Assembly: GCA_017501465.1 (NCBI GenBank)
Contig: JAFVWY010000003.1
Location: 1-48,892, forward strand
Length of the DNA: 48,892 bases
DNA from: Bacilli bacterium
GTDB taxonomy: Bacteria; Bacillota_I; Bacilli_A; ML615J-28; CAG-313
Reading direction: 5' to 3'
The stretch's first letter is position 1. Every line of letters starts with the position of its first letter. Below, piece by piece: positions 5,142-9,834 of the stretch. A model generated the notes under the pieces. The model was not told the origin of the DNA. It saw nothing but the letters and a program-made list of their open reading frames with translations, and searched no databases. Position numbers and translations under genes: made by a program.

Positions 5142-5882
5142 ATGAGAATTGCTATTTGTGATGACAACAAAATGGATTTACAATATGTAACGATTGTTGT
5201 TGAAGAATTTTTTAATAAAAAAAATATTACGCCTAAAATTGATAAATTTGTTAATCCAAGACTTCTTCTTAATAAATTAACTGAAGATGAAAACTTATTA
5301 TATGATTTATTTATCTTAGACGTCGTAATGCCACAAAATGGAATAATTGTTGCACAAAAGATCAATAAACTTTTCCCTAATGCTGTTATTATTTTCCAAA
5401 GTACATCAAGAGATTTTGCGGCTGATGCTTTTAGAGTAAGAGCATTAGATTACTTTTTAAAACCAATTAACAAAATCCAAGTATTTGAGACTTTAGAAAG
5501 ATTATATGATTCGATTGCTCCATCAAATAAAACAGTAATTCAAATAAAGGATAGTGAATTTTTCTTAACAAGTATTGTGATTCAAGATATTAATTATATC
5601 GAATCATTTAATAGAAGACTACTATTTCATTTAATAGATGGAAGAACTATCTATTCTACAACTCTTAGAAGTAAATTTATTGATAGTATGCCATTTGATT
5701 TAGAAACAAATAATTTTATTGCGTGTCATGCATCATTCGTTGTTAATCTTAATCAAGTAAAATCAATATCTTCGAATTCATTTGTTATGTTTAATGGTAA
5801 AGTAATTCCAATTTCTAAGAAGTTATATAAAAACATTAAGAACCAATATATAACTTATCTAGTAGGTGATAATAATGAGTGA
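5142..5882 (+). CDS. LytTR-family response regulator (AgrA/ComE type)
   Basis: Protein of 246 residues. Residues 1-120 form a CheY-like receiver (IAICDDN acidic pocket near the N-terminus, phospho-acceptor Asp in LFILDVVMPQNG near residue 61, Lys in FLKPIN). Residues about 135-240 form a LytTR DNA-binding domain (INYIESFNRRLLFHL, then FIACHASFVVNLNQVKSI). Such regulators bind paired direct repeats and control peptide signalling, bacteriocin or cell-wall genes. The partner kinase follows directly with an overlap. No agrB/agrD-type peptide gene is present in the neighbourhood, so its signal is unknown. Confidence 0.9.
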   Translation: MRIAICDDNKMDLQYVTIVVEEFFNKKNITPKIDKFVNPRLLLNKLTEDENLLYDLFILDVVMPQNGIIVAQKINKLFPNAVIIFQSTSRDFAADAFRVRALDYFLKPINKIQVFETLERLYDSIAPSNKTVIQIKDSEFFLTSIVIQDINYIESFNRRLLFHLIDGRTIYSTTLRSKFIDSMPFDLETNNFIACHASFVVNLNQVKSISSNSFVMFNGKVIPISKKLYKNIKNQYITYLVGDNNE

Positions 5883-7173
5883 ACAATTTTATGTAATATG
5901 TTGGATATTATTTATTAATATCTTTACTTGTACGCTTACATTTTTTAATAGTAAAAAAAGATTTAATACTATTAGTCGAACAATAATTATTCTTTCATAT
6001 TTTATAGTTAGTACTTCTTTAAACATTTATTTTTTGTATAATAAAACTATAAAAGATTTAGAATACTTATACTTTTTTACTCTAATAATCCCATCAATTC
6101 CAATTATGTTATTAACAACTAAAAGTGGGATTATTTCTATTATTACAATATCTTTTAATATCTTTTTAGCAGTTTATTCAGTAATGGTCTTAAAAGATAT
6201 TACAGCTAGATATATAATTAAAAATACAGAATGGGTTGAAATAATTCCTGTAATACTTTTTCCAATGGTATGGATATATGTTAAGTATTTTTATCTAGAC
6301 TTTCAAAATGATATTGACGATACATCTAGTAAATTTTCTCTAATATTAATGTTATTTGGTTTAACTGTTACTTTAGAATTAGTATTATATACTTATCTTG
6401 CAAAAATTGTAGGTCAAGCTTTTCTTAGAACTGATCTATTCTGTATAGCACTTCTTAGCGTTTATTTCTTCTCATATTTAATATTTAAGCCTTTATTTAA
6501 ACTTTATACTAACGAATTAGTCAATATCACTAATACTGAGATCTTTAATAAAGAGGCTTTACATATTGAAGAAAGATTAGAATCTTCACAAAAAAATGAA
6601 GCAAAACTTAAGGTTTTAAAACATGATTTAAAACATATATTAGTTACTGTTAATCAACTAATAACCAACGATAAAATTGAAGAGGCTTCAAATTATCTAC
6701 AAGAATATACAAATAAGATTGATAACATTACTATTTCTAGTTATTCTACTAACCCAATTATTGATTCGGTACTTGGCTATTATATGTCTTATTGTGAGAA
6801 GAATGATATTGAATTTAAAATTCAAATTGATGACTTTGAAAATATTTTAAATATTCCAACTTTAGATTTTTCAGTATTTATTTCTAACTGTTTAGAAAAT
6901 GCTGTTAACGCAACTAAGAAATTACACAAAAATCGTAAAATTTCTTTATCTATTATAAATAACAGACAACGACTTGTTCTTCAAATTAAAAATACCTTTA
7001 ATGGTAAAATTAAATTTGGTGGTGATAATACACCAATATCTAATAAAAAGAATCATGGTATTGGCACAACATCAATTAAATGGTTTGTTGATAAATATCA
7101 TTTAGATATAAATTATATAATAGAAAAAAACAATTTTATTATTAATATTTTATTAAATGATGATAATAAATAA
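5875..7173 (+). CDS. AgrC/ComD-like sensor histidine kinase (GHKL ATPase)
   Basis: Protein of about 432 residues. The N-terminal half (about 1-215) holds some six hydrophobic segments, an integral-membrane sensor. A coiled region leads to the phospho-acceptor box VLKHDLKHILVTVNQL, then the GHKL ATPase with the N-box NCLENAVNA and G-box HGIGTTSIKW. It should phosphorylate the LytTR regulator encoded upstream. The ATG at 5875 was chosen over a GTG at 5866, because that GTG is part of the GGTGAT ribosome site. The start overlaps the regulator's last codons by 8 nt, implying translational coupling. Confidence 0.88.
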   Translation: MSEQFYVICWILFINIFTCTLTFFNSKKRFNTISRTIIILSYFIVSTSLNIYFLYNKTIKDLEYLYFFTLIIPSIPIMLLTTKSGIISIITISFNIFLAVYSVMVLKDITARYIIKNTEWVEIIPVILFPMVWIYVKYFYLDFQNDIDDTSSKFSLILMLFGLTVTLELVLYTYLAKIVGQAFLRTDLFCIALLSVYFFSYLIFKPLFKLYTNELVNITNTEIFNKEALHIEERLESSQKNEAKLKVLKHDLKHILVTVNQLITNDKIEEASNYLQEYTNKIDNITISSYSTNPIIDSVLGYYMSYCEKNDIEFKIQIDDFENILNIPTLDFSVFISNCLENAVNATKKLHKNRKISLSIINNRQRLVLQIKNTFNGKIKFGGDNTPISNKKNHGIGTTSIKWFVDKYHLDINYIIEKNNFIINILLNDDNK

Positions 7174-7201: not shown

Positions 7202-8548
7202 TTATTCACCTTTTTCTTCTTTTGGTTTTCTTAAGTTTACAATAAAGTTAGTAACGATACCTAAAATTAATGCACATGCAACAGTAGTAATAGTTACTTG
7301 TCCTAGTGGAATTACAATACCACCAACACCAGCAATTAAGATAACACTAACTACGAATAAATTTTTATTATCATTTAAATCAACTTTTTGGATCATTTTT
7401 AAACCAGATACAGCAATGAAACCATATAAAGCTACACATACACCACCCATAACACAAGAAGGGATAGTTGCTAAGAATGTAGAGAATGGTCCAAAGAATG
7501 AAATGATAATAGCCATAATAGCAGTAAAGAAAATTGTTTTAATAGATGCATTACCTGAAATAGCAACACAACCAACAGATTCACCATATGTTGTATTAGG
7601 ACATCCACCAAACAATGCACCAGCCATTGAACCAACACCATCACCTAATAATGTTCTATTTAAACCAGGTTCAGTTAATAGATCTTGTTCAATAATAGAT
7701 GATAAGTTTTTGTGGTCAGCGATATGTTCAGCAAATACAACGAATGCAACTGGAATATAAGCAACTGCAACTGTACCAACATATGACCAAGATAAATCTT
7801 TAAATCCACCAAATGCAGTAATGAATGTAAAATCAGGAATCCATTGGATATCTTTAAATAAAGAGAAATTAATTATTTTAAATGATTCTACATCAAAGAT
7901 AAAGCCAATACCAGTTAAAATACAAGCAGCAACATAACCAGCTAAGATACCAATGATAAATGGAATCATTTTTAACATCTTTTTACCATATACAGAACAA
8001 ATTACAACAGTAAAGAAAGTAACAAGTCCACAGAATAATGAAGCATATAAACTATATGTAGATGAAGTAAATTGTTTTGTTAAGTCTCCAATAGCATTAC
8101 CAGCTAATGATAAACCAATAATAGCAACAGTAGGACCAATAATAACTGGTGGCATTAATTTGTTAATCCATTGAACGCCAACATATTTAACGATTAATGA
8201 GATAACTACATAAACTAAACCAGCAAAAATAGCACCTAAGATAATACCTAAGTAACCTAAGGCAGCACTAGCAGCACCAGCAAATGCAGAACACATTGAA
8301 CCAATAAATGCGAAAGATGATCCTAAGAATACTGGACTTTTAAATTTAGTAAATAGTAAATAAACTAAAGTACCAACACCTGCACCAAATAAAGCAGCAG
8401 TAGCTGACATATTTGCATGAGCAAATGATTGATTGATAATTGCAGGTACAGCAATAGTAGCAGCCATAATTGCTAATAATTGTTGGATTGCAAAAACAAC
8501 TGTTTTACCAAAAGATGGTTTGTCTTGAACATTGTAAATTAGTTTCAT
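7202..8548 (-). CDS. uraA: Uracil permease (NCS2 nucleobase:cation symporter)
   Basis: Integral membrane protein of 448 residues with about 12-14 hydrophobic segments. The NCS2 signature is visible: the loop GGCPNTTYGESVGCVAISG near residue 320, and the upstream FVVFAEHIADHKN segment, typical of UraA/PyrP, with the His/Glu pair used for uracil binding in that family. It imports uracil with protons. Xanthine permeases are the main alternative, but the AEHIADHKN motif favours uracil. GAGGAGG lies before the ATG. Expression is probably controlled by the leader peptide and terminator just upstream. Confidence 0.88.
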   Translation of the reverse strand: MKLIYNVQDKPSFGKTVVFAIQQLLAIMAATIAVPAIINQSFAHANMSATAALFGAGVGTLVYLLFTKFKSPVFLGSSFAFIGSMCSAFAGAASAALGYLGIILGAIFAGLVYVVISLIVKYVGVQWINKLMPPVIIGPTVAIIGLSLAGNAIGDLTKQFTSSTYSLYASLFCGLVTFFTVVICSVYGKKMLKMIPFIIGILAGYVAACILTGIGFIFDVESFKIINFSLFKDIQWIPDFTFITAFGGFKDLSWSYVGTVAVAYIPVAFVVFAEHIADHKNLSSIIEQDLLTEPGLNRTLLGDGVGSMAGALFGGCPNTTYGESVGCVAISGNASIKTIFFTAIMAIIISFFGPFSTFLATIPSCVMGGVCVALYGFIAVSGLKMIQKVDLNDNKNLFVVSVILIAGVGGIVIPLGQVTITTVACALILGIVTNFIVNLRKPKEEKGE

Positions 8549-8568
8549 AATTAAATTCCTCCTCTTTT

Positions 8569-8601
8569 CAAAAAAATAGAGTTGATAAAAAAATCAACTC
8601 T
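8569..8601 (-). terminator. Attenuator terminator in the permease leader
   Basis: On the minus strand AGAGTTGAT, six T, ATCAACTCT, then ATTTTTTT: an intrinsic terminator starting exactly at the stop codon of the leader ORF and ending just before the permease ribosome site (GAGGAGG). Its position between the promoter and the gene, with no other gene to terminate except the leader, makes it an attenuator candidate. Confidence 0.75.
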
Positions 8602-8687
8602 TAGAAACTAAAATGGATAGGAAAAATTGTAGCTACTAAAACTACTAATACTATTTGATGATTACACATGCATAGTTCGTTTCTCAT
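8601..8687 (-). CDS. 28-residue leader peptide of the uracil permease gene
   Basis: ATG at 8687 preceded by GGAGAG; the peptide starts MRNELCMCNHQIVLVV and ends PIHFSF, with the stop overlapping the base of the downstream terminator stem. It has a hydrophobic centre rich in Val/Leu. Its coding sequence ends in U-rich stretches (ATTTTTCC, ATTTTAG), the arrangement used by UTP-sensitive attenuators such as E. coli pyrBI, where coupled translation prevents the hairpin. The mechanism is inferred; the peptide itself was not recognised. Confidence 0.6.
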   Translation of the reverse strand: MRNELCMCNHQIVLVVLVATIFPIHFSF

Positions 8688-8704
8688 AGTACACTCTCCA
8701 AAAA

Positions 8705-8724
8705 TTTAATATTCTTCTATTAAA
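8705..8724. promoter_or_regulatory. Hairpin in the permease 5' leader
   Basis: TTTAATA-TTCTTC-TATTAAA inverted repeat just after the -10 box and before the leader ORF. It could act as an RNA polymerase pause hairpin, synchronising transcription with leader translation. Confidence 0.35.
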
Positions 8725-8733
8725 TTCTTAAAC

Positions 8734-8762
8734 ATTATACCAAAATTCGTTTTTTTTTGCAA
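8734..8762 (-). promoter_or_regulatory. Promoter of the leader peptide-uraA unit
   Basis: On the minus strand TTGCAA (8757-8762), 17-bp spacer, TATAAT (8734-8739). The leader ORF starts about 46 bp downstream. Confidence 0.75.
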
Positions 8763-8784
8763 AACATTAGTCCTATAAAATTAA

Positions 8785-9752: not shown

Positions 9753-9834
9753 GCTGTAATATATAACAGCATTGTTCCGCTACTATTGTAATGATAGGAA
9801 TGAACATAAGTTTGAAAAAAATTCAAATGAGAAA
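9753..9834 (+). promoter_or_regulatory. Structured rplS leader, possible L19 autoregulatory RNA
   Basis: The 95-nt untranslated leader can form GCTGT/ACAGC (9753-9770) and a larger stem TGTTC/GAACA enclosing CTAT/ATAG (about 9773-9806). Many Firmicutes carry an L19 leader that binds the protein for feedback control. The match to that family was judged by eye only. Confidence 0.4.

Follow-up and report, generated by a model that had tools for sequence, protein, structure and literature searches.

The window analysed here is a 48,892-nucleotide stretch of a Bacilli genome (contig JAFVWY010000003.1, assembly GCA_017501465.1). Its minus strand carries a gene for an NCS2/UraA-type permease, preceded by a leader with the following features:

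8734-8763, minus strand: sigma-70-type promoter with a TG-extended -10 element (consensus scan, 10/12 matches)
8703-8726, minus strand: early hairpin, 9 bp, A/U, where the transcript is predicted to begin (RNA fold)
8694-8699, minus strand: GGAGAG, the Shine-Dalgarno (SD)-like site of the leader ORF (sequence)
8601-8687, minus strand: leader ORF of 28 codons, MRNELCMCNHQIVLVVLVATIFPIHFSF and stop, from the ATG at 8687 to the TAA at 8603-8601
8602-8651, minus strand: U-rich 50 nt preceding the terminator hairpin, a proposed UTP-sensitive pause region (composition)
8578-8601, minus strand: terminator hairpin, 9 bp with a 6-nt loop, -10.3 kcal/mol (fold and scan)
8570-8577, minus strand: terminator tail ATTTTTTT (T7) (sequence and scan)
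8557-8565, minus strand: permease ribosome site AGAGGAGGA (sequence)
7202-8548, minus strand: NCS2/UraA-type permease of 448 aa, the regulated gene (profile and structure-relative searches)

An earlier note on this DNA had described a promoter, an early hairpin, a 28-codon ORF with its ribosome site, a terminator overlapping the stop codon and a permease ribosome site, and all of these elements were found on the minus strand; the architecture of the leader is real. The -10 element is TATAAT (8739-8734) with a TG upstream, and the -35 element is either TTGCAA (8762-8757) or TTTGCA (8763-8758), giving a spacer of 17 or 18. Taken by itself, the promoter match is at chance level in this AT-rich stretch (2 found versus 1.8 expected), though it sits at the position that the leader requires. 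The arms of the terminator hairpin are AGAGTTGAT-TTTTTT-ATCAACTCT (8601-8578), and its first base, 8601, is the final base of the leader TAA stop. The leader folds better than its shuffled versions (z -2.57), and the predicted fold contains no antiterminator hairpin that rivals the terminator. T makes up 0.50 of positions 8602-8651 versus 0.25 of the remaining ORF. Beside the permease, at 5142-7173 on the plus strand, lies what by eye is likely a LytTR-type response regulator and sensor kinase pair.

The coincidence of ORF and terminator is well beyond what shuffled sequence yields. Three terminator-like sites were found in a 351-bp scan versus 0.0 in shuffles, and none of 300 shuffles of the window leader reproduced the ORF together with the terminator. 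When both strands of the whole window were scanned for terminators at which an SD-led ORF of 20-50 codons ends, the permease leader was the sole qualifying case among 104 terminators. Among background terminators from the window's order, 6 of 995 qualified, and 2 of those 6 are themselves permease leaders.

The 448-aa product matches PF00860, and its top equivalog model is the uracil permease PRK10720, with a score under the model cut-off. The best relative of solved structure is UraA, the uracil permease of E. coli (E 9e-54). Orthologues from Clostridia are 65-77% identical to the window's permease, and many of them lie directly downstream of pyrR or have a leader with a PyrR-like stem (by eye), which ties the permease to pyrimidines. 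The designation of the gene as a uracil permease is thus backed by its best solved relative and by the pyrR-adjoining orthologues, and the protein is predicted to carry uracil.

How, then, might expression of this permease respond to pyrimidines? The earlier note had seen no PyrR-type stem, in keeping with an Rfam search of the window that returned neither a PyrR element nor any other family, with only sub-threshold matches (E up to 5) between 8500 and 9900. One of these, at 9773-9806 on the plus strand, resembles the leader of ribosomal protein L19 (19 bits, E 0.5) and lies before an rplS-like gene. The PyrR element RF00515 was found in none of the 43 genomes of the window's order, and a PyrR protein above the model cut-off was present in one of them (G026); judged by eye, the permease leader of that genome carries a PyrR-like stem and lacks an ORF. 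The window's own genome, which is 96.6% complete, gave no PyrR match above the cut-off. With neither element nor protein found, PyrR control of this permease was rejected. A purine riboswitch (RF00167) in the window's leader was likewise rejected, as not even a weak remnant was found.

The leader ORF recurs in relatives. Permeases were searched for in 150 relatives and their leaders were read, and the same layout was found at 15 Bacilli-side loci, counting the window (the others being L003, L004, L006, L007, L010, L012, L013, L016, L017, L023, L025, L074, L075 and L078). In L003, the only genome of the same genus, the ORF reads MKNTKMIMMNMYSCVVLMTTVFSVF and its stop lies 5 nt ahead of a closely similar hairpin. 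Of the Bacilli-side NCS2 leaders that bear a terminator, 16 of 37 qualify, where dinucleotide shuffles predict 0.31; L005, among these 16, was rejected as a leader, its ORF being the end of the upstream gene. In named genomes of Clostridia, 7 of 29 terminator-bearing leaders qualify versus 0.21 expected (L205, L209, L225, L228, L244, L253 and L282), and a further Clostridial set has an ORF leader at 17 of 82 permease loci; one of the 17, L284, duplicates L225. The earlier note had suggested looking for the ORF in relatives, and the SD, the ORF, its U-rich end and a stop at the hairpin do recur ahead of their NCS2 permeases. Across 38 leaders the distance from the end of the stop codon to the start of the hairpin runs from -6 to +21 nt with a median of 1.5, limits on this distance having formed part of the leader search. 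In E. coli, a stop codon a few bp away leaves a terminator almost wholly repressed, and beyond ~30 bp the terminator is free (PMC4824070); the observed distances fall within the range where a ribosome on the stop codon keeps the hairpin from folding.

Within the window's order, no ORF leader of this type was found on pyrB, upp or pyrG. The own genome's pyrB lacks a comparable SD-preceded ORF leader and has an unusual arrangement (L036, contig C1, ~106200), in which its only good SD (AAAGGAG) is upstream of a terminator hairpin that directly precedes the pyrB ATG, with a possible near-leaderless ORF of 13 codons. No CTP synthase (pyrG) turned up in the genome of the window or in several relatives (G000, G001, G002, G004, G005, G009 and G011). 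Many pyrG leaders in the set L143-L171 have a GGGC or AGAGCC-like sequence just past the TATAAT, plus a terminator, and resemble B. subtilis pyrG with its reiterative control by CTP. The sole layout of the ORF-leader type seen on a purine gene was at L066:773-1070, where a purine riboswitch is followed by a 27-codon leader ORF that ends at a terminator before a purE-like gene.

The U-rich 3' end of the leader ORF, which the earlier note had pointed out in the window, is repeated in composition across the relatives. In 22 leaders U is 0.50 of the last 50 nt versus 0.33 of the remaining ORF (p 5e-5), and in the 17 Clostridial leaders gathered afterwards, for which the last 45 nt were used, it is 0.41 versus 0.25 (p 3e-5). 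The stretch before the hairpin is also richer in U in ORF leaders than ahead of the permease terminators of PyrR genomes (0.45 versus 0.27, p 9e-9), and richer in the 15 Bacilli-side leaders than at 720 background terminators from the window's order (0.52 versus 0.34, p 6e-10). All of these p-values assume that loci are independent, and related leaders are not.

Whether the peptide or only the hairpin is conserved was a further question raised by the earlier note, and the answer is divided: the layout recurs, and the peptide is unconserved even between neighbours. The DNA of the window and L003 is alignable around the U-rich tract and hairpin, and a 2-nt length difference shifts the frame, yet both stops land at the hairpin. 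In L336, L344, L348 and L352, non-synonymous changes outnumber synonymous ones, and the length of 24 codons and the frame are retained. Peptide conservation that would serve as proof of coding was not found, alignable sets included, and since the codon changes show no purifying selection, the case for translation comes from the frame, the SD and the position of the stop. Judging from these sequence comparisons, constraint appears to act on the bases and not on the peptide.

Such divergence of the peptide with a kept frame argues for a role of the act of translation and of RNA composition, and against sensing of an amino acid through its charged tRNA or a peptide that arrests the ribosome. We consider the latter mechanisms very unlikely. 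The C-termini of the leader peptides are rich in Phe, Ser and Leu, all three of which increase toward the peptide ends, as might be expected if one of these residues were sensed; no residue or motif is common to the leaders, however, and they diverge even within a genus. Serine codon choice tracks U content, with TCN outnumbering AGY 66 to 11 in the last 13 codons and 38 to 17 earlier (p 0.03). Nor did we find the run of regulatory codons and alternative hairpins that mark an amino-acid attenuator, the predicted fold being without an antiterminator to compete with the terminator. The hisS/hisZ (PMC2965389) and bmrCD (PMC4191407) attenuators are likewise Gram-positive systems that combine a leader ORF with a terminator, but they rely on His codons or antibiotic stalling, whereas the window's leader has no codon run or conserved stall motif. 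It is still less probable that the product of the ORF is a small membrane peptide, or that the ORF stands before an ordinary terminator by chance. The C-terminus of the window's peptide is hydrophobic, but the relatives' peptides are wholly different and several are polar, and the ORF and terminator coincide far more often than chance allows.

A closer parallel is the pyrBI operon of E. coli with its leader peptide PyrL (NC_000913.3, L283). The two systems share an SD-led leader ORF without regulatory codons, an intrinsic terminator within reach of the ribosome, a tract rich in pyrimidines ahead of that terminator (in pyrL, GCCGTTTTTCTTCCC), and a pyrimidine-linked gene downstream. They differ in that the 135-nt pyrL crosses the hairpin and ends 27 nt past it, whereas the window ORF stops at the start of the hairpin, and in that the window's system governs a permease and belongs to a member of the Bacillota. 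No similarity to PyrL was seen by eye in the peptides of the 38 leaders, which are largely unrelated to it and to each other, and the likeness to pyrBI is apparently convergent rather than homologous. The pyrBI transcript starts AAUUUG, and the window's transcript could start AAUUUA. A pyrBI-like slippage start (TATAAT-GTTTAAG-AATTT) is suggestive in the window and was set aside after it was not found in relatives.

We propose that the leader is a ribosome-dependent, UTP-sensing attenuator that works like that of pyrBI, a reading to which we assign a probability of roughly 60%. Until now, UTP-sensing switches of this sort have been known from enteric bacteria. RNA polymerase would transcribe the leader ORF and a ribosome would begin to translate it. 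When UTP is plentiful, the polymerase would cross the final 50 nt of the ORF, the U-rich part, without delay and leave the ribosome behind, so that the hairpin would form and transcription would end before the permease gene. When UTP is low, the polymerase would be slowed in the U-rich tract, and the ribosome would catch up and disable the terminator. Comparison with relatives supports this reading, which the earlier note had put forward, as a working mechanism; that the leader is translated, that the polymerase pauses there and that UTP is the signal are steps that we infer. B. subtilis RNA polymerase outruns the lead ribosome (Johnson et al. 2020, as cited in PMC9226507), and on the strength of that citation coupling cannot be assumed in Bacillota. 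The result does not contradict the proposed mechanism, because the pyrBI logic needs the ribosome to catch up only at low UTP.

An alternative is that the coupled attenuator responds to translation as a whole (antibiotics, initiation or growth rate) instead of UTP, with the U-rich end merely aiding the pause. The position of the stop and the unconserved peptide would suit any attenuator based on coupling. We nevertheless regard general sensing as unlikely, given that it is a uracil-type permease that is regulated in case after case, that the ORF leaders avoid PyrR genomes and that the enrichment in U is specific. It is also possible, at rather long odds, that the signal is the wider pyrimidine pool (CTP and UTP), or pyrimidines weighed against purines. 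In the GC-rich genomes the tract is rich in both U and C, pyrimidines making up 0.67 near the end of the 17 Clostridial leaders versus 0.40, and a weighing of pyrimidines against purines would fit the purine riboswitch ahead of the ORF leader in six relatives and the one similar leader before purE. Against a wider pool, U is raised in nearly all leaders and C is low (0.13) in the AT-rich Bacilli set.

If a UTP-sensing attenuator of the pyrBI kind does replace PyrR, ORF leaders and PyrR might be expected in different genomes. PyrR attenuators (RF00515) also act by termination ahead of orthologous permeases, whereas the window has a leader ORF in place of the RNA element and the PyrR protein. 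In a Clostridial order from which 248 genomes were sampled and 82 permease loci read, 17 of 17 ORF leaders are in genomes that lack PyrR and none occurs at the 48 loci of PyrR genomes (Fisher 1.4e-8 over all loci, 2.4e-7 over those with a terminator). At L286, in a genome lacking PyrR, the ORF stops well short of the hairpin, beyond the set limits. Among the named genomes, six of the seven with ORF leaders are without PyrR, and four of the five with PyrR-type stems have it; L253 combines an ORF leader with PyrR, possibly through contamination of a MAG. On the permease tree, leader state changes only five times, and of the three well-supported independent pairs about two go the expected way and none the opposite way, which is not significant alone. 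Because independent contrasts by descent are few, these data suggest but do not prove that ORF leaders avoid PyrR genomes.

In six relatives (L003, L012, L017, L023, L074 and L078) the leader ORF lies behind a purine riboswitch, which mostly has a first terminator of its own, and in such tandems a purine input and a pyrimidine input would be read one after the other. Pyr­BI-like attenuators may be a widespread and repeatedly evolved replacement for PyrR at the uracil permeases of Bacillota, which in several lineages stands behind a guanine-type riboswitch to form a two-input purine/pyrimidine gate, a generalization for and against which we see the case as evenly balanced.

A review assigns PyrR to Gram-positive bacteria and nucleotide-dependent premature termination to Gram-negative ones (PMC13328217), and a survey of terminators, which also notes switches of sensing system, reports as novel a His leader peptide in bacilli (PMC2965389). 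Our search of the open literature, with subscription papers mostly outside it, turned up neither pyrBI-type control in Bacillota nor a leader peptide for uraA or pyrP, and the novelty of such control in this phylum is not certain. If the proposed mechanism is true, a regulator has been replaced, in Bacillota that lack PyrR, by a leader ORF without conserved sequence. A replacement of this kind would escape searches by RNA family and by protein family, and it would offer a natural test of functional transcription-translation coupling beyond the Proteobacteria.
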